Position numbers and translations under genes: made by a program. The notes beneath the pieces are model-generated. The model was not told the DNA's origin. It ran no database searches and saw only the letters and a list, made by a program, of their open reading frames with translations. Below, one piece after another: positions 27,584-45,347 of a DNA stretch of 46,253 bases. This DNA comes from a virus. Positions within the stretch are counted from its first letter, which is position 1. Each line of letters starts with the position of its first letter. Location: positions 1 to 46,253 of IMG/VR virus record IMGVR_UViG_3300028388_000084, one strand, 5' to 3'.

Positions 27584-30500
27584 ATGGCTATTGACAAACT
27601 CATACCTCAGTACCTAAATTCAGATACTGACCAGAAACTCGTAAAGTCTGTTGAGATGACAGACAACATTAATGTTAGAGTATCCAACGATAGCGAGGGT
27701 ACTGCTGGAGTATTGAAGAATGTCAAAGGGACAGATTCTTTAAGTCCTAAAACGCCAGCAGATGCGTTGCCAGCAGGTGAAAACAGAGTTATTGGCTCTG
27801 TAGACAATGAGAAGAACAATGAAATACTATTCTTCCTTTGGAACGAGAATGACGACCACGGAATATTCAGAATAGATACAATAACAGATTCTTTTGAATT
27901 AGTATATTCTGATTCTGTTTTAGGTTTTTCAAAGTACGCCCATGTGGATTGTGATATTATCGTAAACGAAGATGAACACACTCTTCTTTACTGGACAGAT
28001 AACATCAATCCTCCTATGAAAATTAATGTCAATAGAGCTATTAGCGGTGATTACCCTGCTTCATTGACATCTGGTACTGATGAAGAAAAGCTTCTAAATC
28101 TTACAGTAGCAAAACAGCCTCCTTTAAAATCACCTTCATACTCACTGGTAAACAATTCAAGTTTAACATACAATAATGTGAACGAGAAGCTGTTTCAGTT
28201 TGCTTACAAGTATGTTTACGAGGACGGAGAGCATTCAGCACTATCTCCTTACAGTACTGTAGCTTTTGCGCAGAATATGATGAAGGATTACTTTATCAGT
28301 GAAGGAAAAAAGAAGTTCTTCAATCAGATTGATATATACATTCAGAATACACCAGCAGAGGTAAAAGAAATTATCGTCTATGCGAAGGAAGCTAATATGC
28401 AGACCTTCTATCAGATAGATAAGATAGCGAACAGCTATGGTACTGGGGTTACTACAGTTTCGTTTACAAACAATAAGCTTGGCAGACCTTTGTCTCAAGA
28501 GGAGGTAGCTAAGACTTACGATAATGTACCTCAACGAGCAAAAGCTTTAGCCGTAACAAACAATAGACTGTTTTTCGGTAACTACGAAGAGGGTTATGCT
28601 AACATAGACGTAGATACAGAGCTTGTAACGAACTACATTCAAAAGCCAGTATCTTACGATATCTCTGTGGAGATTTCTACACCAGACCCTACGATTGCTA
28701 TTGATGCAGCTATACCTCGTATTAAACTTGATTTAACTAATGTTCCGTCTGTTGTACCAGATAACTCAATGTTAAGTGTAAACTTTGTATTGAATTTTGG
28801 TAACATAAACATTGGTGGCGCACAATTGGGTGACGAGACTATATCTATAAACGATGGCGAGCTTGAGGTAGTTTATGAAAGAAGAGATGATTCAAGAACT
28901 GTCGAAGTAAACACAATCAGTGTAAGAGAACTGGCAGGAGAAAGCTTTTTTGAACAGCTATTTCAAGCATTCTTGGATTCAAAATTCCCTAATCTATTCC
29001 CTTCTGGGTTTAATCCAGCATTGGCATTTGATGCCGAAGGATTATACGTTAGAGAAAATATTCCTATTGATGCAAACACATCTAAAGCAGACATCATTGA
29101 TATAATATCTGCAAGGTTAGAAGGCAAGACATTTGATACATTCTTAAACCCTGTAAAAGGGGCGAGAAGATTAACGGTTACCAGACACACTCCATCAAAC
29201 TGGGTAGCAGAAAAAGGCTCTTTTCAAGGTACATCTACGTTTAAGTTTGAAGAAGTTACATCACTTACCACAGCAAACGCTGTAGAGTTTAATGTTGTGC
29301 TTCAGCATATTGATATTAACCTTTATGAATTTTTAAAGGATGGTGCTAAACCAACAAATATAGTATCTACAGACAGGTTGAGACTTCCTGCATTCGAGGC
29401 AGGTACAAGAAGAATTACTCCATACTTCTTTGAACAAGAGATTATAGAGGGTACTTCTGGTCTATATGAAGACCTTGATGGAAAGCGTTCTTTTAAATCT
29501 GGGGCTTCTCACAAGATGGGTATTGTATATCTTGATGATAGAGGTAGAGCCTCTGGTGTTCAAGAGGCTGGCAACGCTTTTGTTACAGAATTAAACAAAA
29601 GAACAGCGGAAACTAACGGTGCTTCATCTATTGTAATGAAGGTTAATCACACTGCTCCATCATGGGCAAGCAAGTGGTTACCTGTTTATGTAGGTTCTGG
29701 GAGTACTGAGCTTAAGTTTATGTATTCTGTTTTAGGAGCATTCGTTCCAAGAAACAATACCAATGGAATCTCTGCCCTACAAAACAAGAAACAGATTTAT
29801 GTATCTGTAAACTCTATTTTCGGAGACAAAGGATTTAACAAGTCTTTGGGCGCTGATGTAGAGTACAAGTTTGAAAAGGGAGATAGACTTAGAGTAATCG
29901 ATTACGGAAGGGGCAATAAATACACCTCTGAATTTAAGGTAGTTGGTTACGAAGTTCTTAAAGATGACGAGGACAACAATCCTATCTTAGACAAGATAAA
30001 CGAACAGGCAATATCTGTTACTACAGGAGAGTTCCTTGTGCTTGAAGATAACGGTTCTTTCCCATTTAGTTACTCAGCTATTGTAAACGAAAACAGTAAA
30101 TGGTTTGATAACTGTATTGTTGAGGTTTATAGACCCAAGAAAGAGCTTGATGACGAGGCTTATGTATACTATGAACTTGGGAAGGTTTATGACGTTGAGA
30201 ACGGTGAGCATAGCAGTGAGAGAAACGGAACTACACTTGGAGCAACCATTGACTATGTGAACGGAGTTTTGTTGCTGTATTCTGCTGACAAGTTCTTTAA
30301 GGGAGATATCCTTGAAGTAGGAGGAAGCACTATTACAGTAAATGATGTTTGGTATGAGGATGGATTTTATTATGCCACTTATTTGGACAAAAACATACCT
30401 TTATTAGGAGTTGGTTCTTATTTATTTAATATAACTAATTATGCTCCAGCTATCGAGATTACTCAAGGTGATGTATACTTCCGCCCAAGACTTTTGTTTA

Positions 30501-32308
30501 CTGCAAGCAAACAGATTAGTCAAGTAACTTACAGGTCAGCTGACTCAATGCCTGCTATTGTTGATTGGATTGAAGATTACTCGGTATCTGATTTCTTCCC
30601 TTCTAAGAGGACTTCTATCGGTAAGGCATACGCATATATACCAGAAGCGGAAACAACTCGCAGAATCTCTTCTATAACATATTCTGATGCGTTTGTAATA
30701 GACTCAGATAGACTAAACCTAAGCTCTTTTAACCTTTCGTTAGCTAACTGGAAAGACTTGGACATCGAGCATGGTCAGATAGATAAGATTGTACCAAGAG
30801 CAGATGCGTTAACTGTGTTGCAAAATAGCAAGGTGTCTAATGTACCTGTAGGCAGGAACTTAGTAGCTTATGCAGACGGCAAGCAGTCTCTTACTACATC
30901 TACTGATGTTCTTGGAAAAGAAGCTTACTACTCTGGAGACTTCGGTTCATCTGGTAATCCAGAAGCTGTTGTTGAACGATTTGGTGTAGTATACTTCACA
31001 GACCTTAACTCAAGAAGAGTTATTCGTGTGAGTGCTGATGGAATTACGCCTATCAGTGAGAAAGGATTGGATAGCTATATTCAGAGATTGTTTGAGGATG
31101 TAAGTAAAAACGCAACAGTTAAGAAGATTGTAGGCGGTTTTGACCCAGACAACAATGAGTACATAATGACTGTAGAAGATTTCTCCCAGTCTACAATTAG
31201 TGTCGGCTCATCAGACCCACAGCTTGAGCCTACGGTATACGAGGTTGAGGTAAACGATGACGGTCTGTATGTAGTAGAACCTGCATTTACATCTTCAGAT
31301 ATTATCTGGAATACATTAGATATAAATTGGAATAACCTTTGTCTTGAATGGGAAAAGGTGGGTGACGGTATCTTGTTTATTGATTCTGATACACTATACA
31401 TCGACTCAAACCTTATAGGTAGCACAGGTGATTTAGATATCATTATTACAGACACAAACTACAATTTTGTAGCTATTGGTCAGTATTCCTTTGGTAACGA
31501 TTTAATTACAATCCCTACTCAGACATGTGATGGAAGGGGCATCGTGACTAAATTTGGAGGTGCTGAATCTCAAGGAGTTACATTGGCTTATGACCATAAA
31601 AGTGGTTATTGGAATTCAAAATACAGTTTCCAACCTTCTAACTACGCAAACATTGGGAATGCTTTCTATAGCTTCTTCCAAAATGATAATGGTCTTGTTT
31701 GGAAACACAATGTGAATGAAACAAGAGGCTTGTTCTATGGAGTTCAGTATCCATCTTCTTTTGAGGTTGTTTCAAATCACAATCCTTCAATGATTAAAGT
31801 ATTCCAAGCTATAGGAATCGAAGGTGGTGGTACTTGGACGGCTCAAATAAATACGTCAACTCAAGAGACTGATATTCAAGAGTTTACAGAGAGGGAAGGA
31901 CACAGCTATGCTATGATTCCTATGGATACAGTCAATTCCAAGTCTCATCAGATATATTTAGGTACTGTGGAGTCTGTTACAGGTAACAATGTAACATTCA
32001 CTACTCAAGTAAACAGAGTGCCATTTAATATTGGGGATACGATTAAGGTAGCAAGTGGTTCAAACTTAATTACAACATCAGCTACAATTACATCTATGAT
32101 AGACAGAAACACACTTGCGCTTTCTGGCGGTAACTTCAATGTAGGTGACAAACTGTTTGTTGAACACCTATCTATTATTGATGGAGACCCAATGAGAGAT
32201 GTGTATGCTACAATTAAAATGACAAGTACAGACTCTGAACCATTTGAAGTTCATGCTATATCTGTACACTACGACAGGTCGAGACTACACAACGACAGAG
32301 TCAACTAA
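27584..32308 (+). CDS. Tail nozzle/tubular protein B-like giant
   Basis: A 1574-residue protein. Near the N-terminus DNINVRVSNDSEGTAGVLKN (about 27-46) matches the lead-in of T7 gp12-like nozzle and crAss-like muzzle proteins (NIhVxxSExGTxGxxENhxG). Its body is almost entirely beta-structured, with propeller-like repeats (ILFFLWNENDDHGIFRID; LLYWTDNINPPMKINVNRAI). The C-terminal 300 residues contain smaller beta domains (YLGTVESVTGNNVTFTTQV) that could form the outer tip. It is about twice as long as T7 gp12, so extra domains were added, maybe for host binding. It probably closes the tube. Confidence 0.7.
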   Translation: MAIDKLIPQYLNSDTDQKLVKSVEMTDNINVRVSNDSEGTAGVLKNVKGTDSLSPKTPADALPAGENRVIGSVDNEKNNEILFFLWNENDDHGIFRIDTITDSFELVYSDSVLGFSKYAHVDCDIIVNEDEHTLLYWTDNINPPMKINVNRAISGDYPASLTSGTDEEKLLNLTVAKQPPLKSPSYSLVNNSSLTYNNVNEKLFQFAYKYVYEDGEHSALSPYSTVAFAQNMMKDYFISEGKKKFFNQIDIYIQNTPAEVKEIIVYAKEANMQTFYQIDKIANSYGTGVTTVSFTNNKLGRPLSQEEVAKTYDNVPQRAKALAVTNNRLFFGNYEEGYANIDVDTELVTNYIQKPVSYDISVEISTPDPTIAIDAAIPRIKLDLTNVPSVVPDNSMLSVNFVLNFGNINIGGAQLGDETISINDGELEVVYERRDDSRTVEVNTISVRELAGESFFEQLFQAFLDSKFPNLFPSGFNPALAFDAEGLYVRENIPIDANTSKADIIDIISARLEGKTFDTFLNPVKGARRLTVTRHTPSNWVAEKGSFQGTSTFKFEEVTSLTTANAVEFNVVLQHIDINLYEFLKDGAKPTNIVSTDRLRLPAFEAGTRRITPYFFEQEIIEGTSGLYEDLDGKRSFKSGASHKMGIVYLDDRGRASGVQEAGNAFVTELNKRTAETNGASSIVMKVNHTAPSWASKWLPVYVGSGSTELKFMYSVLGAFVPRNNTNGISALQNKKQIYVSVNSIFGDKGFNKSLGADVEYKFEKGDRLRVIDYGRGNKYTSEFKVVGYEVLKDDEDNNPILDKINEQAISVTTGEFLVLEDNGSFPFSYSAIVNENSKWFDNCIVEVYRPKKELDDEAYVYYELGKVYDVENGEHSSERNGTTLGATIDYVNGVLLLYSADKFFKGDILEVGGSTITVNDVWYEDGFYYATYLDKNIPLLGVGSYLFNITNYAPAIEITQGDVYFRPRLLFTASKQISQVTYRSADSMPAIVDWIEDYSVSDFFPSKRTSIGKAYAYIPEAETTRRISSITYSDAFVIDSDRLNLSSFNLSLANWKDLDIEHGQIDKIVPRADALTVLQNSKVSNVPVGRNLVAYADGKQSLTTSTDVLGKEAYYSGDFGSSGNPEAVVERFGVVYFTDLNSRRVIRVSADGITPISEKGLDSYIQRLFEDVSKNATVKKIVGGFDPDNNEYIMTVEDFSQSTISVGSSDPQLEPTVYEVEVNDDGLYVVEPAFTSSDIIWNTLDINWNNLCLEWEKVGDGILFIDSDTLYIDSNLIGSTGDLDIIITDTNYNFVAIGQYSFGNDLITIPTQTCDGRGIVTKFGGAESQGVTLAYDHKSGYWNSKYSFQPSNYANIGNAFYSFFQNDNGLVWKHNVNETRGLFYGVQYPSSFEVVSNHNPSMIKVFQAIGIEGGGTWTAQINTSTQETDIQEFTEREGHSYAMIPMDTVNSKSHQIYLGTVESVTGNNVTFTTQVNRVPFNIGDTIKVASGSNLITTSATITSMIDRNTLALSGGNFNVGDKLFVEHLSIIDGDPMRDVYATIKMTSTDSEPFEVHAISVHYDRSRLHNDRVN

Positions 32309-32326: not shown

Positions 32327-33649
32327 ATGCCAACACCAGAAGAAGTACAACAACAATCTAATCCAGCGGCAGCAGCAGGTAAGCTCGCTGGACAGGCTGC
32401 AATGACAGCTGCTGGGGGATACGCTCAAGCAGCTCTTGGAGGTATACAAGCTTTATATGGAGCATATCAAGCGCCAAGAGCCAGAGCTGAGTATGAAGCT
32501 GCTAGAGCTTCTGCTCCGTCATTAGAAACACCTTCTCAGTTTTACGAGAACTATAGAAACGCCTATGATGCTGAGTTAGCTCGTATGGAGACTGATGCTA
32601 TTCAGTCTAATCTTGCTACATCTGTACAGGCACTTCAAGGAGCTGGAGGTCGTTCTTTGGTTGGAGGTCTTAACTCTGCTACACGTTCTGCGCAAGATGC
32701 TCAGAACAGAATGCTTGCTCAAGAAAGACAAGCACGAATGGTTGCTGGTCAACAACTTGCAGCTGCTGAAGAAAGAGCTATTGGTCGTAAAGAGGCACGT
32801 AGCCAGCAAGATATCGCTTATGCTAACCAAGCATATCAAGCTGCTTTAGGAAACGTGGCTTCTGGTCTCGGCTCTCTTGGAGAAGGACTCATGTATGGAG
32901 TGTCTGCAACAGATTGGGAAAAAGTAGGTAATAATCTAAAATCTGGTGCTAAAGCAACAGGAAAAGGATTAAAAAAAGCTTCTGATGTAACTGGTCTCAC
33001 ACAAGCCGCTGATTTTGTTGGTAAGAAAGCTAATGCTTTGAAGGAAAGAGTTGATTACGAGATGGACATGATGCCAGATAGAGTCAACAACTTCAAGACA
33101 CAGAGAGCTATCAAGAAACAGCTTAAAGGTGCTAAGATGTCTGCCGCTCCAGCAATGGAAACAGCATACAAGCCAGCAGTAGAAATGAGTGCAAATGCTC
33201 AGAATCCTTTTGCAGGATACCAGCTTCCTACTCCAACCGCTCCTTCTGTTCAAGAGACTACATTAAATCCAGTAAGTGGTAATGCGGTATCACAGACTAC
33301 TCAGAACAATCAAATAATGCAAGAGCTTCAACAAGATGCTAATACATTACGCATGTTTGCACCTATGATACAGGGTAAAAAACAAATGTCTCCTGCTCAG
33401 AAAGGTTGGATGAAGTGGTACGATAAGTACGGTAGCTACATTCCGATGTTCGAGAATGGTGGCATGATGACTCAAGGGGCATTCAATCACGACACTAACC
33501 CTATTCATCTCGTACAGAATGGCGAGAAGGTAGGCGAAGCAACTGGAGGTGAATATATTTTGAACCCACAGCAAGCTAAAGCTGTTGCTAAGGAAAGTAC
33601 ATACGCAAGAAAGCTATTCAAGCAGTTTGCGAAAAAAGCAAAAAAATAA
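32327..33649 (+). CDS. Internal virion protein, T7 gp14-like plan
   Basis: A 440-residue protein. Residues 10-55 are Ala/Gly-rich and amphipathic (AAAAGKLAGQAAMTAAGGYA; ALGGIQALYGAYQAPRA), able to enter a membrane. Residues 75-210 are helical and Gln/Ala-rich. Near the end is ENGGMMTQGAFNHDTNPIHL, then GEATGGEYILNPQQAKAVAK and a basic KKAKK end; the GGEYILNPxQAK tail is frequent in phage internal or minor virion proteins. It probably is ejected early and helps form the trans-envelope channel. It is followed after 6 bp by the next ejection protein. Confidence 0.6.
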   Translation: MPTPEEVQQQSNPAAAAGKLAGQAAMTAAGGYAQAALGGIQALYGAYQAPRARAEYEAARASAPSLETPSQFYENYRNAYDAELARMETDAIQSNLATSVQALQGAGGRSLVGGLNSATRSAQDAQNRMLAQERQARMVAGQQLAAAEERAIGRKEARSQQDIAYANQAYQAALGNVASGLGSLGEGLMYGVSATDWEKVGNNLKSGAKATGKGLKKASDVTGLTQAADFVGKKANALKERVDYEMDMMPDRVNNFKTQRAIKKQLKGAKMSAAPAMETAYKPAVEMSANAQNPFAGYQLPTPTAPSVQETTLNPVSGNAVSQTTQNNQIMQELQQDANTLRMFAPMIQGKKQMSPAQKGWMKWYDKYGSYIPMFENGGMMTQGAFNHDTNPIHLVQNGEKVGEATGGEYILNPQQAKAVAKESTYARKLFKQFAKKAKK

Positions 33650-33655
33650 TATACA

Positions 33656-35131
33656 ATGGCAGATTCTCCATTAAATCAGCAGATATTTCAAGTACCTAAG
33701 TTGGGTCAGCTCGGTATGCAGCTTGACCAAGCGCAAGAAGCCAAGCGTAAAGCCAAGCAAGCACAGCTTCAGAAAGACGTTGAGAAAACTGGTGCTGACC
33801 AAGCATACATGAAATCTATTAATACTCTTACAGGTGACTGGAAGGGTGTTGCTGAGGCTCAGTATTCTACATTTAAAGAAGCTGCTATCAACTACGAACA
33901 GACTCAATCTGCTTCTGCAAAAAGAGAGATGGAATACCAAGCTTCTCTTCTTAATCACGCATTGCAGGCAGGTACTACTATTTTGAGTACTGCTGGAGAG
34001 AACTACACAACTGCTAAAGCAAACAATTTTGATGGATACGCTGTTTCTGCCGAGGAAGCAAGCACTGCCTATAAAAACTTTGTAAACAGTAAGATTGAAT
34101 TTAAGCAAACTCCACAAGGTGTAATGATTAAAGAAGGAGACAATTGGATTCCATTCCAAAACTCTTCCTACTTTTCTTCTGAGCTTACAGAGAACAATAC
34201 CTTCTTAGTTCCGAAGAACATTAAGCTTGGAGAATATGCGACTACTACAAAATTTGTAGACAAGTGGAGCGGAATCATATCTAAAGCTAACTCAGAACAA
34301 GATGCTGTTAATCGTGTGTTGAAGGAATTTGACATCATGCTTGAGAAGAATGAAGACTTTTTTAAAGATGTTCATATCTATCACGGAATCAATAATCGTA
34401 GCATTGGAGAGTACGACAGATTCAGCTCTGAAGACCTAAGTCAAATCGAGATGACTCTTGATGATGAAGAGGTGAATGCTGATGCTGTTCAAAGTTACCG
34501 TGAAGGTGTTATAGCTGATGTTAAAGCACGTTGGTTTGGTAGCGATGCTGATGGTGGCAGCGGTAGCGGAATCAAATCTACATACGATGTAAGAGTTATT
34601 CCAGATGTAAATATCTCTGCTGACAGAATCAAGGTGAATGGTGAATTTATCGAACCGTCTAACGAGGAAAATGTCCCTTCTGTTAAGTTTGATTACTTTA
34701 CAACTCTTCCAAGTGGTGTAAGACCAAAGGCAGAGGCAGAAGCAAAAAACCTTCCTAAAGGAGCAAATGCTTATCAAGTTGTAGGTATTGGATTCGTTGA
34801 TGGTATGCCATATGCGAAAAAGAACACTTACGCTGCACAGGATTTAGCCACAGCTATGGATAACGACTTTAAAGGTCTTGATGCCAAAGAAGTTATTGTT
34901 GAACCTCTAACCAGAGAAGAGTTCACTGGCATGAAGAAGGATGCACAAGATGCAATCATACTAAGATTCGAAGAAGCAGGCTACGACTTAAACTCTTGGC
35001 TCACAGGAAACAAAGGAGAAAATTCCGTAACTTCGCAAGAGCAAACTGAAGGTGAAGAAGACCCACTTGTTGCCGAACTAAAGGCACAGGGATTCTCTGA
35101 TGAAGATATTCAAGAGATTCTTGCTGGGTAA
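33656..35131 (+). CDS. Probable internal/ejection protein
   Basis: A 491-residue protein. Residues 15-150 form a helical Gln/Ala/Lys-rich section (LDQAQEAKRKAKQAQLQKDV; YQASLLNHALQAGTTILST). The middle is mixed, with a small Gly-rich linker DADGGSGSGIKS near 300. The end has a UBA-like helical motif VAELKAQGFSDEDIQEILAG. Its position between the gp14-like protein and the giant protein parallels the T7 gp14-gp15-gp16 set, so a gp15-like core part is plausible. No enzymatic motif was seen. Confidence 0.5.
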   Translation: MADSPLNQQIFQVPKLGQLGMQLDQAQEAKRKAKQAQLQKDVEKTGADQAYMKSINTLTGDWKGVAEAQYSTFKEAAINYEQTQSASAKREMEYQASLLNHALQAGTTILSTAGENYTTAKANNFDGYAVSAEEASTAYKNFVNSKIEFKQTPQGVMIKEGDNWIPFQNSSYFSSELTENNTFLVPKNIKLGEYATTTKFVDKWSGIISKANSEQDAVNRVLKEFDIMLEKNEDFFKDVHIYHGINNRSIGEYDRFSSEDLSQIEMTLDDEEVNADAVQSYREGVIADVKARWFGSDADGGSGSGIKSTYDVRVIPDVNISADRIKVNGEFIEPSNEENVPSVKFDYFTTLPSGVRPKAEAEAKNLPKGANAYQVVGIGFVDGMPYAKKNTYAAQDLATAMDNDFKGLDAKEVIVEPLTREEFTGMKKDAQDAIILRFEEAGYDLNSWLTGNKGENSVTSQEQTEGEEDPLVAELKAQGFSDEDIQEILAG

Positions 35132-35154: not shown

Positions 35155-38100
35155 ATGTCTGACGGTCTTAAGGAAGTTCTAAAAAAAGCTAAAGCAGCAG
35201 GTGCAACTCCAGAACAGCTTCTTCGTATAGCTAAAACTTATAAAAAAAAAGATTCTACGGAATCACAATCCACTGGGCAGGAAGAGACTGCAAGTACGGT
35301 TTCTACTCAAGAAGAAACTGGAAAAAATAATCAAAATGCTCCGCAGCTTCCTCCACAGTTATCTGTAGATATGGCTGCAGCTGCTAAACTCGAAAGAGTA
35401 AAGCAGGGGGAACTTGATGCTGCTCCAAGAACTGAGTACCAAAGATACAAAGCACCAGAAGCTCCTAAGAAGATTAAGAACGAGAAGGGTGAAATGGTCG
35501 ACCCTCGATACGTTGAAGTTCAACGTAGAAAAGCTCAACAAAGAAAAGAGCAAGAGGCTCGTGACTTAGGATACTTTGATGGTGTAGATAAAGATGTTGA
35601 CCCATCAGCTCCTATAAATGAGCAAAATGCAAAGGTTCGTCAAGACATCCTTGAAAACATTGATAGAGCTAAACGAGGCTATGAATCACTTCAAGACACG
35701 AAGCTTGGTGACCAACTCGGTATTGACACAGACGCTCCTACTAAATTAGAAGATTATAACGCTAAACTTAGAAAAGCCCAACAGATTATCACTCAGCTTG
35801 ACGACATGGTTGAGAATGGTGTTAATCTTAGTGGTCAGTATCACGCATACGCCAAAAGCGAAGAACTTACGTCAGAGCAGGTAGAGAAATTTACTCAGCA
35901 AGCTATTAATGATGTATCTGAAATCTTAGGTGTAGACCCTTCTGGTCTTGACTTGAATACTCTGCGTGACCACGTCAACAGAAACAAGAACTTTACTGAA
36001 GGCGTTCTATTTGAACAGACTGTAGACAGAGCTGCTTACAAGGAGGCTACTGAAAGCCAAATGGATACGAAGTATTTTGAGAACTTAAAATCAAAAGACT
36101 TTACATTCACAAGAACGGCTACTATTGACGCTGTTTTAAATCTTGGTAATCAAGTTGCGGTAGCTGCTTATGACATGGCTGGAAACTCAGTTGAGGCTGA
36201 GAGAATGCAACAAAGAATCGCAGAGAGAAATGTGAGGGCAAGCCTTGAGTTAGGTCACGATATTTACGATTCTAAAGGTGCTACAGAACACTTTGAAGAA
36301 GGAGACTGGGGAACAGGTTTAGAGAAACTTACAATGATGACTGCTCAGTCTTATTTGCCTATGGCTGTAGCAATGATTAACCCTGCGGCTGGTGTGGCTT
36401 ATGGTGGTGTTTCTTCTGGTTTTGGTACATACGAAGCGTATAGAGATAGAGGAGACTTAACTGAGAGCGAGAAGTTCTTGTTATCTACAACCTCTGCGTC
36501 TGTTGAAGCAGCAATCACTGCTATTGGTATGGGTAACATCCGTAGAGCAAGAGCCGCTGCTGGTGTCGTTGATGTTGCAGGTGAAATGTCTACAGCTGCT
36601 CGAAGAAAAGCGTACAAAAAAGCATTAGACTTCCTTGAACCAAGCATGACCAGAGTAAGTAATGCTCTTAAAAATCCTGCGGTTCGTGGTGTAACCACAT
36701 TCGGTAAAGATGTATTAGAAGAGCAAGCTGAAGAACTCAGTATCGCTGCTCTACAGCAAGGTCTTGCTTATGCTATTGCTAATGACAAATTCGATAAGTA
36801 CGAGTTTGCCGATACATTCTTATCTACCCTTGCTATGTCATCTCCTACATCTGGGATTACAGGGATTAGAAACTACAAAAATTACAGCTTGATTAACGCA
36901 ATGCCAAGTGTAGATAACATGGATGCATTTGAAGCGTTGCAAACTAAATACATTGACCTTAAAGAAACTCTTTCTGACGAAACACTAAGTCCAGAGCATA
37001 AAGCTATCATCAAAGATGAGATGCGTAATGTAAAGAAGGAAATCTACAATATGAAGATTGCTTCTATGGATATGTTTGATTCAATGAGTGAGGAAGACCA
37101 GAATAAACTTATTGCTGTAAACTCTCAAATCAGAAAGCTTTCCAAGCTTGCGAAGGAGACTGAAAATGAAACAGCACTACAAGCTGTTCGTGCTAAACTT
37201 CAACAAGCGTTAGACTTCAAGAGAGAATTAGAAGGTGGCAAGAGACAAGAGCCTTCAATGGAAGGAACTACAACAGAAGCTCCACAAACACCACCAGATA
37301 CAGGAGTAACTCTTGACGAAGCATTAGAACAGACTCAGCGTAACAAGGCTGCTAACGAGCAGAAACGAGCTGATGCTGAACAAAGAATGAAGCCTAAGGA
37401 TACCCCTCGTGAAATGGTAAACAGAAGGGTTCGCTACACCAATCCTGTTAATGGTGAGGTCGTAGAGGGTGTATTAGCTAAAGACGGTCAAAGATTATTA
37501 GTAGAGACAGACAAGGGTCAGATATTCGATGTAGGCAACTTCGATGAACTGGCTGACCAAAATGTAAATGAGGTTAAGTCTGTTGACAACGCTAAGGAAA
37601 TAACGAGACTTGAGAATCAACTTGAGGCTAAAGAGCAACGTAAACAACAGCTTCCTGCTAAGATTAAAGAACTTCGTGGCAGAGTTAAGAATACAAACAG
37701 CAAGGCTGGTAAGGACAAGCTAAGAACTCAGATTCAAAAACTTAAGGCTGAACAAGGCACTATAGACCAAGACATTGAAAACTTGAAGTCTGATATCGAT
37801 GCTGTTTCTCAAGAGCCAGCAACTGAACAAAAAGTACTTCCGATAGAACTTGCTGAGACTACAACAGTTTCTGTAAATGAAGATGGTACTTTCAAATACA
37901 ACAGCACTAAGGGTGCTGCTCCTAAAGGTACTGACATGAAGCCTGTTAATGGCTTGAAGTCAATCCGTAGAGACAAGAATGGAAACATTACTCGTGTGGT
38001 GATGACAAGCCTTGATGGTGCTGAGACCTACAACTTAAAAGGTCAAGATGCTCAAGATATGGCTTACCAGCTATATATGCAGGAGATGTCTACTCCAGAG

Positions 38101-41100
38101 GGGCAGGCTAAAGTAGATGCAGAGTTTGAGGCTGATGCAGAAGCAATGGCTATCTTGGAGCAAGAAGAATCTAAAGTAGAAAACAAAGAAGTTAATGAAA
38201 AAGCAGAAGAAACTGAGTCCATCCCAGAGACTCCAGAAGCTACCGAAGGAAGCCCAGCTGAAGGTACTCAACAAACTGTTCAGCAACCAGACAGAATCAG
38301 AACAGAAGGAGATGTAAATCTTACTAACGATTCTGTTAGAAGCATCAATCGTGTACTAAGTGCATTAGGTGTTGTCGTTCCAGATATCAATATTGTTCTG
38401 CACTCCTCAAGAGATAGCTACAACAATACTCATAAGAACGCAAACAAGGATGTAGGTCACTACAATCCAAACACCAATACTATGCACATGTTGGTTGACG
38501 GAAATAATCCGTTAAACCTTGAGGGATGGCTATTGCTTAAACACGAAGCTATCCATCCAGTATTGGATGCTATTTTAGCTAACGACCCACAGTTTGCTAA
38601 CCTTGTAGAGTCTCGTGTCAAGTCTATCATGAATAGATATGCTAAAGGCACACCTCAACAACAAAGAGTACTTGACCACTACGGAAGATACGCTGGTCGT
38701 TCTGACCAGTCTTTGGAGCTGTTGACTGAGTTTATCAATGTCTTCTCAGAGCCAGACGGTCTTCGTATGATTTCTAAGGATAGAACGGCACTACAGAAGG
38801 TAGCTGACCTATTCCAATCAATCATAGATAGGATTCTTGGAGGTAAGAACAAGGCTGTTCCTGCTTCAAAGAAAGAGATTATTGACCTTGTCAAAAACAT
38901 CAATGAAGCCTTCACAAGTGGTAGACAGATTGATGTAGTAAAAACTAAGGCAGAGGTTAGAGAAGGACAGATTAGACAGAGTCTCAGAAGAGACAATGAC
39001 CTAAATAACGCTATCTCTCCTAATAAAGGTCAAGATGCAGAATCTGTTCTGAATGAATGGAAGAAAAGCAACAGCAACTTTATTGTTGCCAAAGATTTTG
39101 ACCACAGCATTGAGTTAAGAAGAATGGGATTTGTAGAGTCTTATCAAAGACCAGATGGGAAGATAGTAATGAGTGTTCCTGTCAAGTATGAATCATACGA
39201 TGCTTCTACCAACGTAGCTAAGATTAAAAAAGACTCATTTATCAAAGAGTCTGATATCACTGAACAACCGAAAAAGAAAGTACACAATGTTCTTAAGTCT
39301 CTCGGTAAGCTTGCTGAATACAACATTGAATTTGTAGACAGACCAGACCTTAAGTTTAGCTCTACACTTGTTATTCCAGACGCTGATAATGGTCTTAATG
39401 AAATGACTGTCGTAGCAAATCTTGCGTATGCTAATGAAAGAACAGGTGCTGGTGGTTTTTCTTTTGCTGTTCTTGAAACCTTGAGAAAAAAGAATCCAGA
39501 GGCTTTAAACAAGCTATACTCTGACTTAAAGAAAAACAAAAAAGCAACAGATTTATTTGAGACGTTCAACAGATATGTTAACGTCTACAAGCCTTTGTTA
39601 CCTTCAGATAAAATGAGCAATGAGGACTTAGAGTTTGCTGCTCTTGCGAAGGTATTACAGGAGTCGATAGACAAAGTGATTACAGAATCAATGTCTGTTG
39701 ATGAAGTTGAGTTCTTATCTGATGCTCAAAAAGTATTTAGTGACATCATCACTGAGCAAACAGAGCAAAATGGTGATTTGATTATAACTGAAATACCTTT
39801 TGGTGAAAACTTCATACCAGCATTAAATTCTTTGTTTGTCAAAAAAGAAGGAATCAAGCTTTCTGAAGACATTGAAGTTGAAGAAAAGAAAATCATAGAC
39901 AGACTTGTCGATATCCTTGAGGGTAAAATATCTGACGATGTTAATGATTTCAAATCATCATTGGATGAGATTTTAAAATACTTCAATAGTGAGAATAGAT
40001 ATACAATGATTGATGGCATAAAAATGCTTGAATTCACTTCGGATATATCTACAAAAGACTTTGATGCTGTTCTTAAACATATTTTAAACGCATCTAAACT
40101 TCCGTCATTTACCTCTAATGACAATGCTGTCATGGAGATGACTAAAGACTATATTAGTCTGTTCAAAATCATGAACACATCTGGAATTGATTCCAAGGCA
40201 TTTAGTGATATAGAATTTGAATTCTTCAATCCAAACTCAACAGAGCTGACACCTAACCAAAGAAATGTTGTGTCAATGTTGCGTAAGATTGTGGATTCAT
40301 ATCCTCAATCAATGCTCACTCCTTACTTTGATTTCAACTTAAAGAAATTTAAGAAGCAGAAGTACGGCACAAGCTTTAATTCTCTTATATCTAAAATCAT
40401 ATCTTTTGATAAGATTGAAGACTTAGTTGAAGCATACAGTCCAGAAGAGCGTTCTAATGTGATTCTTGGATTTGGACTTATTGACCAAATGTATGAGTTT
40501 GACAAGATTTCTAACCCATCATTAACGAAGGATGAGTTTGCCACAAAAGCATTTGATGCTGTTGAAGACCTTGCAGACAGCTCTTCTGAAATCTTCGAGA
40601 ACTACAAGGAAAAGATATCTAAGACAAAGGTATCTGATGAGCAGATAGAGTTGGTTAAGAATTCTAAGTCTCTTGTAGAGGCTATGAAGCATGCTGATTC
40701 AAACGTAAATTATGACGACTTCTCTGGATTATTCACGGTTAAACTTAAGTTTGATGATTTTAAGCATCGTTTACCGAAGAAAATCAGCAATCCAGTAGAA
40801 ACAAAAGACTCAAAAGGGAATAAATTCTATGTAGAGAAAGGTGCTGAGGTACTTTTGAATAAGGATGCTGTTCTTGAAATCTCCATTGGTGCAGACTTCA
40901 ATATTTCTTACCAGTTTAAAGACAAGAAATACGGTGGTTATTATGATTATCCAAGCAACTGGAAAATCGGTGACTTAACGATGCCTCTTGTATTTGAGCA
41001 TGTGAACAAGATTGGTTCTTTGATGAACGCCAAGAGTATTAAGTTTTCTGCTGTAGAAGCAGCAATGCACCCAGAGATATCAGAAAAACAATACAATCCA

Positions 41101-44100
41101 GCACAGATTGAAAGATTTAAGAATCCTTCACCTGTATCAAGAAGAATGCTAAATAATGCTGCTGCTATAAGAAATGGTAATATGGTCAACGCTACCATAA
41201 ACAGAAGTTTAGCATTCACATTGCCTAACAATCCAAACAAGCTTTATACTACAAACGACAGAACGGCTGCGGAGTTTATCTCAACTCTTTCTATTAAAAA
41301 AGAGAATCCTTATGCGGAGATTGGTAAAGAGTTAAAAGACAAAGGGTTTATTGATAAAATCAAATACAAAGAATTTGAGATAAGCGAAAATTCAAGCTTA
41401 GAAGAAGAAGCGTTTAAAATCAATTCTACCTCTGTTGCTCTTTCGGACAACGGTGAGGTTATCCTCAACAACGCACCTATGCGTTCTGCTTATGAGAATA
41501 GCGAGAAATACATTTCTCCTGCTGGTATACGTCAGATGCTTACTCCAGAGGATGCTGCTACAGGTCGTAAGGCTGCGGCAGCTGTTGACCAGATGGAACA
41601 GAATGCTTCTGACAGAGCTATTAAGCAGGGTAAGGGGAGAAGATTAGCTAAGATTAAAGATTGGACAAGCCGTGAATCTTTGATTGACCGTGCAGCTAAA
41701 CTTAAGAAGGCTATGGAAGAAGGTCTTGCTGACTGGATTAAAGCTCAATTTACAAACCTTAATGGTTCAAGAGCAAATGCAGACAGACAATTCCATAAGA
41801 TTGAGAAGAAAATCTTTGGTGGTCTGAATACTACTGAGGAGGTTCTACTTGATAAGATTATCTACCTAAGACGTGTAATTCAGATTGACACTAACTGGGA
41901 CAACAGATATAACGAGAATCAAATAAAGCTGGCTGACGCTAAGAGTAATGTTGAAAGCCTCAGACAGGCTGTCCAAGACTCTAAGACTAAAGAAGATAAA
42001 GCTAAGGCTAAGAAGCGTTTATCTGAAGCTGTTAAAACTGTAAAATACTTTGAGTCACAAGTAGACAAGTACAGCGTAAGACCTATGCATCCTACCGATG
42101 GTACTATTCCAATCAACCTTGAGAATGCTGTTCTTGCACTAAGACATTACGAACAACAGCTTGGTGCTGAGAAAATGTCTATGCTCAACGAAAGGGTTAA
42201 GATGTACTTTGACTCTTACAAGGAAATCCTTCAAGAAACTTACGAGGCTGGTATCATTGATAAAGAGACAAGAGACAGATTCATAAACGATGAATACTCT
42301 CCTCGTGTGTTCTTACAGAAGATGTTTGAAGATTCAGAGGTGAACACCTTTGAAGCTATGAACCTTTCCGAAGACCAAATCAAGGGCATTAAAGACGGTA
42401 GCGAAACTGAAATCTTTACTGATGCGAGATTCTTGTTAAACATGAGCCTTCGTACTCTTAGAGACAAGCAAGCAAGAAACAAGATTTACAGAGATATCGA
42501 TGAACAAGCAGCCAAGCAAGGTTACAACACTAAGAGTGGCTTCATCAAAGAGGCTAACTACAAGCGTTCTAAGATAAACGATGAGATTCGTGAGGACGGA
42601 TTTGGAAACAGGGTTGTAGAGCCAGCTGACAAAGGATTTAAGAATGTATTCTACAGAGTAGATGGTAAGCTAAGAGCATTTCAGATACTTGAGGAGTACC
42701 ATGGAGAGCTTACTGGCACAGATAAGCGTTCTTTAATGAGTCCAGATGCTAAAAGGCGTGCGAGAAGATATAGTGGTGTTAATCCATTGAAGATGTTTGC
42801 AACTGGTATTAAGCCTGTATTTGCTATTGTATCTGCACTTCGTGGTTTCCAAGAGGTCACTCGTGGTCGTGGTGTGTATGACCAGTATAAATTCTTGCCT
42901 GCGATGCAGTTCATGGCTATGGTAGACTTCTTCAAAGGTGTTCAGAATGCTGTGTTAGACACAGACTTAGTAAATGACTACTTTGCTCATGGTGGTGGCA
43001 TGACCTTTATGACTACAGAGGGTAGACCAGATAAGATTTTTAAGAGAAAAAATTCTGTTTCAAGAAAACTACTCGGTAAGTTGAATCCTGTCAAAGGAAC
43101 TGTTCAAGTACTTGCATATGCAGGTGAGAAATCAGAGCTTGGATTGAGACTTGCTATCTACCAGAGAGCATTAAGTACTATTAAGGAGCAACGCCCAGAC
43201 CTAACTATCGAGCAACAAAAAGCTCTTGCAGTTGAGGAGGCTCGCCTACTTGCTGACTTCTCTCAAGGTGGTTACAGAGGCAAGGATATAGATTCATTTA
43301 AGCCTTATCTAAATGCAGCAATTCAAGGTACAAGAGGTACTGTTGAATACGCAAGAAAGAATCCTAAGATGTTTATAGCAAAACAGGTTCAGTCTGCTGT
43401 CATCAACGCAGGGTTGACTATGCTCGCCAAGATGATGATGGGGGATGAGGAATGGGATAAGACAGCTTACTACATTAAGAACAGATATAATCTAATCCCA
43501 ACATTCCTTACAGACGAGAATGGAAAGGCTATTATGCTTAGAGTTCCTAAAGCTCACCAGTTCATGTTCTTTGATAAGATTGCCTCTATAGCAGGAGAAG
43601 GAATGCTGGCTGCAATGCAAGGTAAAGAGTTCGACTTCCAGATGTATAAGAAGAATGAAATCTCTGGTCTAAGTCTGGACGAAGATGGACTTGCTCTTGT
43701 TGATGCCTTCTTAAGCTCTATGCCTGTGGGTGACTTGATACCTGCTGAGGTGTTTACTCCTGCAAAGCTAACTATGGAAGATTTTACTTGGCAGGTACTT
43801 TCTAATATCCCTACATTCGGCTTTGTTGATGCGTATACAAACAACATAGATAGATACCGTGAGTCTATGATTTCTTACGACTTTGAAAGAGTACATCCAC
43901 ATATGGAATCTCATAAGGACGGAAGAACAAGAGACATCTATAAGTTCTTGACAGGAATCTATAACAATTCTGTAGCTCCTGCAAACACAGCTTCAGCTGC
44001 AAGGCTTCAAGCGGCAACAGAAAAGCTTGTTACTAATGAGTCTAACTCTGTTATATCTTTCTTGTACAGCATCACTGATGCTATGATTAAGACATCTGAT

Positions 44101-44610
44101 GAGAAAGAGGGTGTTCAATTTAAAGACAAGGACAAAAAGACTTTTGATTATACTTTGGGTCTCAAGCGTTCATTTATCTACACTGCTCCAGACAAGAAAT
44201 ACAACATCAATGAAAAGAAATTGATGGAGGATATCGACAAGCATGAGCGTGGAGATATGAAGAAGGTGAAGAAGGATATCATAAACATCTTCAAGAATAA
44301 CGAGTACAAGTTCGGAGACAAACTTCCTAAGGCAGCATCTGATTACTTGAAGTCTCTACCATTAGAGCGTAAGAGATTCGGTAAAGCATACATTGAGAAT
44401 ATGGCTAAAGGATTTGAGGTTGACCCAGTGTTTATTGAGATTAAATACTCAGCAAGCCCTATTGCAGCAGCAGCTAAACTTAAGCTGTCTTATGGTTTTG
44501 ATAGTTGGAATGACCTTGAAGATGATGTCAAGAAAGATATTGCTAACGGTCTTTCTCGTGCAGGTTACAATCCTAATAAAGAGTTTATGTATCATTTGAA
44601 ACAAAATTAA
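35155..44610 (+). CDS. 3151-aa ejection/polyvalent protein with zincin motif
   Basis: The largest gene here. After a helical lead (KEVLKKAKAAGATPEQLLRI) it has a hydrophobic Gly/Ala section (393-462: SYLPMAVAMINPAAGVAYGG), a coiled coil (about 812-885), an HExxH zincin motif HEAIH at 1130-1134 with a third-ligand candidate Glu near 1187-1192 (LELLTEF), a long AT-rich middle (about 1290-2170), a helical part with a second coiled coil (2230-2310) and an LPD38-like end (about 2540-2980: AGEKSELGLRLAIYQRAL, ADFSQGGYRG, YLNAAIQGTRG). This order is typical of large phage polyvalent proteins that enter the cell with the DNA. It likely forms the channel and acts as a protease. Confidence 0.7.
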   Translation: MSDGLKEVLKKAKAAGATPEQLLRIAKTYKKKDSTESQSTGQEETASTVSTQEETGKNNQNAPQLPPQLSVDMAAAAKLERVKQGELDAAPRTEYQRYKAPEAPKKIKNEKGEMVDPRYVEVQRRKAQQRKEQEARDLGYFDGVDKDVDPSAPINEQNAKVRQDILENIDRAKRGYESLQDTKLGDQLGIDTDAPTKLEDYNAKLRKAQQIITQLDDMVENGVNLSGQYHAYAKSEELTSEQVEKFTQQAINDVSEILGVDPSGLDLNTLRDHVNRNKNFTEGVLFEQTVDRAAYKEATESQMDTKYFENLKSKDFTFTRTATIDAVLNLGNQVAVAAYDMAGNSVEAERMQQRIAERNVRASLELGHDIYDSKGATEHFEEGDWGTGLEKLTMMTAQSYLPMAVAMINPAAGVAYGGVSSGFGTYEAYRDRGDLTESEKFLLSTTSASVEAAITAIGMGNIRRARAAAGVVDVAGEMSTAARRKAYKKALDFLEPSMTRVSNALKNPAVRGVTTFGKDVLEEQAEELSIAALQQGLAYAIANDKFDKYEFADTFLSTLAMSSPTSGITGIRNYKNYSLINAMPSVDNMDAFEALQTKYIDLKETLSDETLSPEHKAIIKDEMRNVKKEIYNMKIASMDMFDSMSEEDQNKLIAVNSQIRKLSKLAKETENETALQAVRAKLQQALDFKRELEGGKRQEPSMEGTTTEAPQTPPDTGVTLDEALEQTQRNKAANEQKRADAEQRMKPKDTPREMVNRRVRYTNPVNGEVVEGVLAKDGQRLLVETDKGQIFDVGNFDELADQNVNEVKSVDNAKEITRLENQLEAKEQRKQQLPAKIKELRGRVKNTNSKAGKDKLRTQIQKLKAEQGTIDQDIENLKSDIDAVSQEPATEQKVLPIELAETTTVSVNEDGTFKYNSTKGAAPKGTDMKPVNGLKSIRRDKNGNITRVVMTSLDGAETYNLKGQDAQDMAYQLYMQEMSTPEGQAKVDAEFEADAEAMAILEQEESKVENKEVNEKAEETESIPETPEATEGSPAEGTQQTVQQPDRIRTEGDVNLTNDSVRSINRVLSALGVVVPDINIVLHSSRDSYNNTHKNANKDVGHYNPNTNTMHMLVDGNNPLNLEGWLLLKHEAIHPVLDAILANDPQFANLVESRVKSIMNRYAKGTPQQQRVLDHYGRYAGRSDQSLELLTEFINVFSEPDGLRMISKDRTALQKVADLFQSIIDRILGGKNKAVPASKKEIIDLVKNINEAFTSGRQIDVVKTKAEVREGQIRQSLRRDNDLNNAISPNKGQDAESVLNEWKKSNSNFIVAKDFDHSIELRRMGFVESYQRPDGKIVMSVPVKYESYDASTNVAKIKKDSFIKESDITEQPKKKVHNVLKSLGKLAEYNIEFVDRPDLKFSSTLVIPDADNGLNEMTVVANLAYANERTGAGGFSFAVLETLRKKNPEALNKLYSDLKKNKKATDLFETFNRYVNVYKPLLPSDKMSNEDLEFAALAKVLQESIDKVITESMSVDEVEFLSDAQKVFSDIITEQTEQNGDLIITEIPFGENFIPALNSLFVKKEGIKLSEDIEVEEKKIIDRLVDILEGKISDDVNDFKSSLDEILKYFNSENRYTMIDGIKMLEFTSDISTKDFDAVLKHILNASKLPSFTSNDNAVMEMTKDYISLFKIMNTSGIDSKAFSDIEFEFFNPNSTELTPNQRNVVSMLRKIVDSYPQSMLTPYFDFNLKKFKKQKYGTSFNSLISKIISFDKIEDLVEAYSPEERSNVILGFGLIDQMYEFDKISNPSLTKDEFATKAFDAVEDLADSSSEIFENYKEKISKTKVSDEQIELVKNSKSLVEAMKHADSNVNYDDFSGLFTVKLKFDDFKHRLPKKISNPVETKDSKGNKFYVEKGAEVLLNKDAVLEISIGADFNISYQFKDKKYGGYYDYPSNWKIGDLTMPLVFEHVNKIGSLMNAKSIKFSAVEAAMHPEISEKQYNPAQIERFKNPSPVSRRMLNNAAAIRNGNMVNATINRSLAFTLPNNPNKLYTTNDRTAAEFISTLSIKKENPYAEIGKELKDKGFIDKIKYKEFEISENSSLEEEAFKINSTSVALSDNGEVILNNAPMRSAYENSEKYISPAGIRQMLTPEDAATGRKAAAAVDQMEQNASDRAIKQGKGRRLAKIKDWTSRESLIDRAAKLKKAMEEGLADWIKAQFTNLNGSRANADRQFHKIEKKIFGGLNTTEEVLLDKIIYLRRVIQIDTNWDNRYNENQIKLADAKSNVESLRQAVQDSKTKEDKAKAKKRLSEAVKTVKYFESQVDKYSVRPMHPTDGTIPINLENAVLALRHYEQQLGAEKMSMLNERVKMYFDSYKEILQETYEAGIIDKETRDRFINDEYSPRVFLQKMFEDSEVNTFEAMNLSEDQIKGIKDGSETEIFTDARFLLNMSLRTLRDKQARNKIYRDIDEQAAKQGYNTKSGFIKEANYKRSKINDEIREDGFGNRVVEPADKGFKNVFYRVDGKLRAFQILEEYHGELTGTDKRSLMSPDAKRRARRYSGVNPLKMFATGIKPVFAIVSALRGFQEVTRGRGVYDQYKFLPAMQFMAMVDFFKGVQNAVLDTDLVNDYFAHGGGMTFMTTEGRPDKIFKRKNSVSRKLLGKLNPVKGTVQVLAYAGEKSELGLRLAIYQRALSTIKEQRPDLTIEQQKALAVEEARLLADFSQGGYRGKDIDSFKPYLNAAIQGTRGTVEYARKNPKMFIAKQVQSAVINAGLTMLAKMMMGDEEWDKTAYYIKNRYNLIPTFLTDENGKAIMLRVPKAHQFMFFDKIASIAGEGMLAAMQGKEFDFQMYKKNEISGLSLDEDGLALVDAFLSSMPVGDLIPAEVFTPAKLTMEDFTWQVLSNIPTFGFVDAYTNNIDRYRESMISYDFERVHPHMESHKDGRTRDIYKFLTGIYNNSVAPANTASAARLQAATEKLVTNESNSVISFLYSITDAMIKTSDEKEGVQFKDKDKKTFDYTLGLKRSFIYTAPDKKYNINEKKLMEDIDKHERGDMKKVKKDIINIFKNNEYKFGDKLPKAASDYLKSLPLERKRFGKAYIENMAKGFEVDPVFIEIKYSASPIAAAAKLKLSYGFDSWNDLEDDVKKDIANGLSRAGYNPNKEFMYHLKQN

Positions 44611-44628
44611 ATTAAAGCATATAATACT

Positions 44629-44874
44629 ATGAAACGATTAATGAGAAAGATTATGTCATTTGGAGAGATTTTTAAGGATAAGAATGAATACAATGAGAAG
44701 ACCATCATCGGTTTTCTCTCATTCGCTGTAATGGTTATTGTTATGGTTGCTGACATTGTCAGTGGATTAATGGGCAAAGACTTAGTTATCAATGAGTTTA
44801 CATACAACAGCTTTGTTTTTGTAACTTTAGGCAGCTTTGGAATCGCAGGGTTAGAAAAATTCGCCAAGAAGTAA
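44629..44874 (+). CDS. Putative holin
   Basis: An 81-residue protein with a basic, helical N-terminus (residues 1-24), one strong membrane helix IIGFLSFAVMVIVMVADIVSG (about 26-46) and a second weaker one (FVFVTLGSFGIAGLEKF, about 63-79). Small size, two helices, charged ends and position directly before a lysis enzyme fit a holin. The next gene starts in the TAATG overlap. It would open the inner membrane at the end of infection. Confidence 0.6.
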   Translation: MKRLMRKIMSFGEIFKDKNEYNEKTIIGFLSFAVMVIVMVADIVSGLMGKDLVINEFTYNSFVFVTLGSFGIAGLEKFAKK

Positions 44875-45347
44875 TGGAGCTAGAAGTATTGAGATTTAGC
44901 AGTCAGAAGGATAGTACCAATGGACTATTGTTCGACAAGACTGGTGGCAAGAGAGAGTTTCTCTGCTACACCCTTGAGGATGAGCATAGAGACGAGAAAG
45001 TGATGGGGGAGACAAGAGTCCCTTCTGGAACGTATAAAATCACTCTACGCAAGACTGGAGGCTTTCATGGTAGATATTCAAAAAAGTATGGAGAAATGCA
45101 CAAAGGAATGTTATGGGTTCGTGATGTACCTAACTTTGAGTATATCCTTATTCATACTGGTAACACTGACGAACACACTGCTGGGTGTCTCATTGTTGGT
45201 GATAGTCAACAAGCGAATTTTGGCGATAGCAATGGTTTTGTTGGCTCGTCTGTTAATGCGTATAAAAGAATTTACCCTAAGATTGCTAAAGCTTTGGAAG
45301 AAGGGGAAGAAGTAACAATAACATATATAGATTTTGATACAATATGA
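44874..45347 (+). CDS. DUF5675-like lysis enzyme candidate
   Basis: A 157-residue protein. It has FLCYTLEDEHRDEKVMGETR and VPSGTYKITLRKTGGFHGRY (about 29-68), then GMLWVRDVPNFEYILIHTGN (79-98) and TAGCLIVGDS (102-111). The IHTGNxxxxTxGCLIVG element is the core of DUF5675, whose HxGN...TxGC arrangement recalls L,D-transpeptidase-like active sites with His and Cys. Next to a holin, it most likely cuts or remodels peptidoglycan. That activity is inferred; I know no direct proof for the family. It overlaps the next gene as ATGA. Confidence 0.65.
   Translation: MELEVLRFSSQKDSTNGLLFDKTGGKREFLCYTLEDEHRDEKVMGETRVPSGTYKITLRKTGGFHGRYSKKYGEMHKGMLWVRDVPNFEYILIHTGNTDEHTAGCLIVGDSQQANFGDSNGFVGSSVNAYKRIYPKIAKALEEGEEVTITYIDFDTI

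Follow-up and report, generated by a model that had tools for sequence, protein, structure and literature searches.

The 3151-residue protein (hereafter the giant) encoded in the window, which is the whole stretch of DNA analysed here and itself a virus record of 46,253 bases, is best explained as a polyvalent cargo or ejection protein carried in the virion of a crAss-related podovirus, with a metallopeptidase that is most likely active and cuts the giant itself. We consider this explanation fairly probable. The open reading frame described in an earlier note on this DNA proved to be real, and its main point is well supported: a zincin-like domain lies inside a giant, probably virion-carried protein of LPD38 type, as indicated by conserved residues, a predicted fold and LPD38 homology. 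Segment profiles show that N2, the zincin domain and C1–C3 are conserved, while the linker and the middle are poorly so (Table 1).

Table 1. Coordinates of the giant, its regions and the neighbouring genes in the window
Feature	Residues	Position	Strand	Remark
Muzzle protein		27584..32308	+	crAss_MUZ_C domain; upstream in structural block
440-aa protein		32327..33649	+	Ala/Gly-rich N-terminus; homologue of elemo gp20
491-aa protein		33656..35131	+	between 440-aa protein and giant
Giant polyvalent/cargo protein (probable)	3151 aa	35155..44610	+	ATG start; final gene of structural block; assigned by position and homology
N2, N-terminal helical region	355–694	36217..37236	+	iterated profile
Heptad-like stretch	614–651	36994..37107	+	rough score
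Heptad-like stretch	845–887	37687..37815	+	rough score; within poorly conserved linker (701–1040)
Zincin-like metallopeptidase domain (predicted)	1060–1260	38332..38934	+	
HEAIH active-site motif	1130–1134	38542..38556	+	
E1188-x3-E1192	1188–1192	38716..38730	+	second active-site helix (predicted)
Poorly conserved middle	1266–2103	38950..41463	+	without Pfam match
Conserved region C1	2104–2540	41464..42774	+	
Conserved C2–C3	2541–3070	42775..44364	+	includes LPD38-like part, about 2765–2935

The earlier note had pointed to the HEAIH site and to a plausible third Glu ligand, and both are borne out. The motif at residue 1130 is the only HExxH in the giant (0.024 expected from composition), and HExxH is invariant across the 25 distinct sequences in the zincin domain profile (28 proteins, window included), although some members share about 25% identity or less with the window domain. 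Of the 25 distinct sequences, 23 keep E1188 and 24 keep E1192, with gaps in the others, and both residues fall in the predicted second helix; by analogy with gluzincins, E1188 is predicted to be the third zinc ligand and E1192 its partner. The zincin domain always lies between the N-terminal helical and C-terminal common regions where those are detected, and the order of detected regions (N2-zincin-C1-C2) is the same in all members (28 of 28).

An AlphaFold model of the domain, built on seven sequences, reached a mean pLDDT of 79.5 and a pTM of 0.79. It contains a helix (19–31), three strands (40–44, 62–65 and 70–74), the HEAIH helix (83–102) and a further helix with both Glu residues (146–158), which is a zincin-like topology, and the predicted zincin-like fold of residues 1060–1260 is well supported. 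In a PDB structure search (Foldseek) with this model, the 14 best matches were all zinc metallopeptidases, namely 13 clostridial collagenases followed by one lethal-factor entry, and these leading matches were weak (E no better than 4.8e-3, TM-scores 0.33–0.43), with non-peptidases lower in the list. Among viral structures, the strongest matches were mostly unnamed large proteins, with an elemo “Structural protein” at E 1.6e-5, and proteins named polyvalent matched more weakly. Pfam, PDB-sequence and PHROG searches with the giant or the zincin region gave nothing useful, and no Pfam peptidase model convincingly matches the zincin region. A chance HExxH in a helix, with no peptidase behind it, would agree with the Pfam and PDB sequence searches taken alone, but it is scarcely credible given the conserved HExxH and second-helix Glu, the predicted zincin-like fold and the number of HExxH motifs in 77 non-redundant complete relatives (46 seen vs 0.88 expected).

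The N2 region is common to phi18:3_gp123, phi38:1_gp101, elemo_gp18 and Panino CDS0069 by iterated profile, in which phi18:3_gp123 appeared at E 8e-7 in round 2, prior to its inclusion. Because N2 is rich in alanine, its profile may have drifted; the C-terminal homology links are stronger than those of N2. The “membrane-active-looking” parts claimed before amount to weak hydrophobic segments in N2, where the 19-residue hydropathy rises to only about 1.3 at its peaks around residues 401 and 441, and the “channel parts” said to accompany the peptidase are only inferred. The coiled coils of the same description correspond to the two heptad-like stretches, which reach the 0.1% shuffle threshold in a rough, home-made heptad score. 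The predicted fold of residues 1845–2115 was not confident (pLDDT 48) and was not used.

Besides the muzzle gene with its crAss C-terminal domain, the window contains terminase, portal, tail-fibre and virion genes, and the muzzle gene stands in a syntenic tail block, as in a Crassvirales-type virion. Terminase and muzzle matches come mostly from Flavobacterium, Cellulophaga, Tenacibaculum and Maribacter phages, all below 60% identity; for the terminase, an uncultured podovirus matches best. The nearest named relatives, taken from matches rather than from a tree, are Cellulophaga and Flavobacterium podoviruses. The phage has relatives among the viruses of Bacteroidetes from the sea and from fresh water, and is best read as a crAss-related podovirus, probably with a Bacteroidetes host. 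In MW202828.1 (L004 39100–42055), the podovirus with the closest terminase, an 11.6 kb annotated gene occupies the same post-structural position. Rfam, tRNA and tandem-repeat scans found nothing, and searches with window proteins brought no RNA polymerase to light among those covered. Just downstream of the giant, at 44874–45347, lies a protein assigned to DUF5675 (8e-27) that also matches a Tlde1 domain weakly, possibly a lysis or cell-wall enzyme.

The giant follows the muzzle and two smaller proteins, and the structural block ends there. The same general order is seen in the elemo phages, phi46:3, phi19:3, phi18:3, phi38:1 and Panino; that is, muzzle, small virion proteins and giant succeed one another across Flavobacterium, Cellulophaga and Maribacter phages. 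Elemo gp20, the homologue of the 440-aa protein, is annotated as virion structural, and the 491-aa protein is, by its position, possibly a second cargo protein. By eye, a similar-looking short amphipathic helix motif occurs at the end of the 491-aa protein (35057–35131, LKAQGFSDEDIQEIL) and at the start of the giant (35155–35250, LKKAKAAGATPEQLLRIA), and may be a packaging signal common to the two. In the same gene slot, gp123 of Cellulophaga phage phi18:3 (Pachyviridae) is annotated as a virion protein with “experimental MS/MS proteomics”. It resembles the window giant in its post-muzzle position and N-terminal region; however, it has 1935 aa, shows no HExxH and is unmatched by the window C-terminal profiles. 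Flavobacterium phage elemo gp18 (3694 aa) shares the position, the N-terminal region and the zincin family (E 1.7e-9 before iteration), while C1–C3 are undetected in it and its record gives DUF3293. An elemovirus giant in this gene slot that bears the zincin domain is named as structural. The phi46:3 homologue (L002 16428–22947) is annotated as two genes, gp120 and gp121, that lie about 320 bases apart, and the window giant matches both sides of this gap in tblastn, which may reflect a natural split or a sequence error.

For the LPD38-like end, homology stands and a direct match does not. Pfam LPD38 (PF18857) gives no match to the window giant at E<=10. However, the relative L016 matches this model at 3.1e-10, above the cut-off, Bacillus phage Palmer gp20 matches it at 3.1e-31, and a Desulfofustis phage protein matches at 4e-5, below the model cut-off. 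Moreover, a profile of the C-terminus of the window family matches the LPD38 region of Palmer with a probability of 97.3 and E 1.6e-11. Relatives match the Pfam model and the window protein itself does not, so the name given to the window giant is LPD38-like and no stronger one. The C-terminal region of Palmer gp20 is homologous to that of the window giant, but Palmer gp20 has no HExxH, and the window giant itself falls below Pfam LPD38 detection.

Contrary to the earlier note, in which such a fusion counts as unknown, phage giants with zincin and LPD domains were already described by Iyer et al. 2017 (PMC5512222). In that work, no domain is more frequent in the polyvalent proteins of phages and plasmids than the zincin-like metallopeptidase, LPD38 is listed as phage-type only, and the metallopeptidases (MPTases) fall into 12 clades. 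The window domain resembles these MPTases in its predicted fold (a helix at the N-terminal end, three strands, the helix with HExxH and a second one with Glu) and in being part of a very large phage protein that combines several domains, LPD domains among them; it differs from them in that no Pfam model matches it. Several unrelated domains in one polypeptide, the mark of polyvalent proteins, are found here as the zincin domain and the LPD38-like region of one ORF. Proteins of this class, which often carry MPTase and LPD domains, enter the host together with the phage or plasmid genome. The window giant adds a further example to the established polyvalent class, with a zincin subfamily unmatched by Pfam.

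The role favoured by Iyer et al. is processing of the polyvalent protein itself, with effector roles also allowed, and P1 DdrB is cut before packaging (PMC5512222). N4 virion RNA polymerase, by contrast, is packaged uncut, although encapsidation requires the part of the protein that holds its metallopeptidase domain (PMC5512222). A largely non-catalytic role in virion structure or encapsidation has been suggested for the N4 protein, which serves as a precedent, but we give such a role only a slim chance in the window giant: HExxH and the two Glu residues are kept in divergent sequences at the counts given above, so dispensable catalysis is unlikely. Cargo proteins of the crAss001 virion are stored in the capsid and in the tail behind the muzzle (PMC10172136). 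The cargo gp45/gp46 and the RNA-polymerase cargo gp47/gp49/gp50 of phi-crAss001 (PMC10172136) belong, as in the window, to muzzle-adjacent genes of a phage with a muzzle-type tail, a likeness of tail type and gene placement.

Single-sequence searches of viral_contigs with the zincin domain or the C-terminus found no relatives, whereas queries with alignments of the C-terminal part turned up 99 viral loci, some of them redundant. The whole architecture is kept at about 3000 aa in eight loci (L008, L010–L015 and L066; some near-identical or identical). Three giants of about 3450 aa (L045, L061 and L021) have three HExxH each in different motif contexts, which suggests several zincin domains per protein. 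No plasmid was found with the C-terminus and no bacterial genome with the zincin domain, while the C-terminus search of bacterial genomes gave 7 distant loci (L120–L126), on contigs labelled Planctomycetota, Sabulitectum, Syntrophaceae and several Bacilli, which may represent prophages or contamination. Of the 77 relatives counted above, 37 have 2300 aa or more and 20 of these contain the zincin family, vs 1 of the 40 shorter ones. This is expected if long versions need processing, although length and domain number are confounded and the association is weak evidence for self-processing.

Under the preferred explanation, the phage head, and perhaps the tail as well, would house the giant, which would be extruded through the muzzle; the N- and C-terminal regions found across its family would have a part in packaging or ejection. 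The zinc metallopeptidase at its centre, most likely active, would cleave the giant, either while still in the capsid or once entry has taken place, and thereby release its parts. Packaging in the window phage, and the activity, timing and substrate of the metallopeptidase, are what we infer here. The conserved catalytic residues, the zincin-like model, the gene order and the MS/MS-annotated phi18:3_gp123 with its shared N-terminal region argue for cargo and self-processing, as does, for the latter, the preference of Iyer et al. (PMC5512222). Against it stand the sequence of the MS-detected phi18:3 relative, which contains no HExxH, the Foldseek PDB matches at E no better than 5e-3, and the want of a convincing Pfam peptidase match.

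The main rival to self-processing is a host target: the metallopeptidase would be an injected effector that cuts host proteins, for instance defence or cell-surface components, in the cytoplasm or envelope. The giant sits in a probable cargo slot, roles of this kind are allowed by Iyer et al. (PMC5512222), and some related giants carry other Pfam enzymatic domains (DNA methylase at 1.1e-25; GNAT, weakly), yet conservation of the zincin domain across many diverse giants is more in keeping with a general function than with one tied to the host, and we hold this reading to be unlikely, though with a real chance. In the window giant, no second enzymatic domain was identified. Impressions from reading sequence of an ADP-ribosyltransferase in Panino and a GNAT in phi46:3 were unsupported by Pfam at E<=0.1.

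What matters is that a conserved, probably active metallopeptidase is predicted at the cargo position of a muzzle-type tail. There is a small chance that these domains form a Pfam-undetected gluzincin-like clade (HExxH, about 50 residues, ExxxE), confined to ejection giants of Bacteroidetes phages, that cuts host proteins early; if true, a peptidase of this clade would be delivered into the host and would attack its proteins within minutes of the start of infection. A defined domain, an active site and relatives in isolated phages (the elemo phages on Flavobacterium sp. BAL314) are now available, and what the metallopeptidases of polyvalent proteins cut becomes directly testable in the elemo phages.
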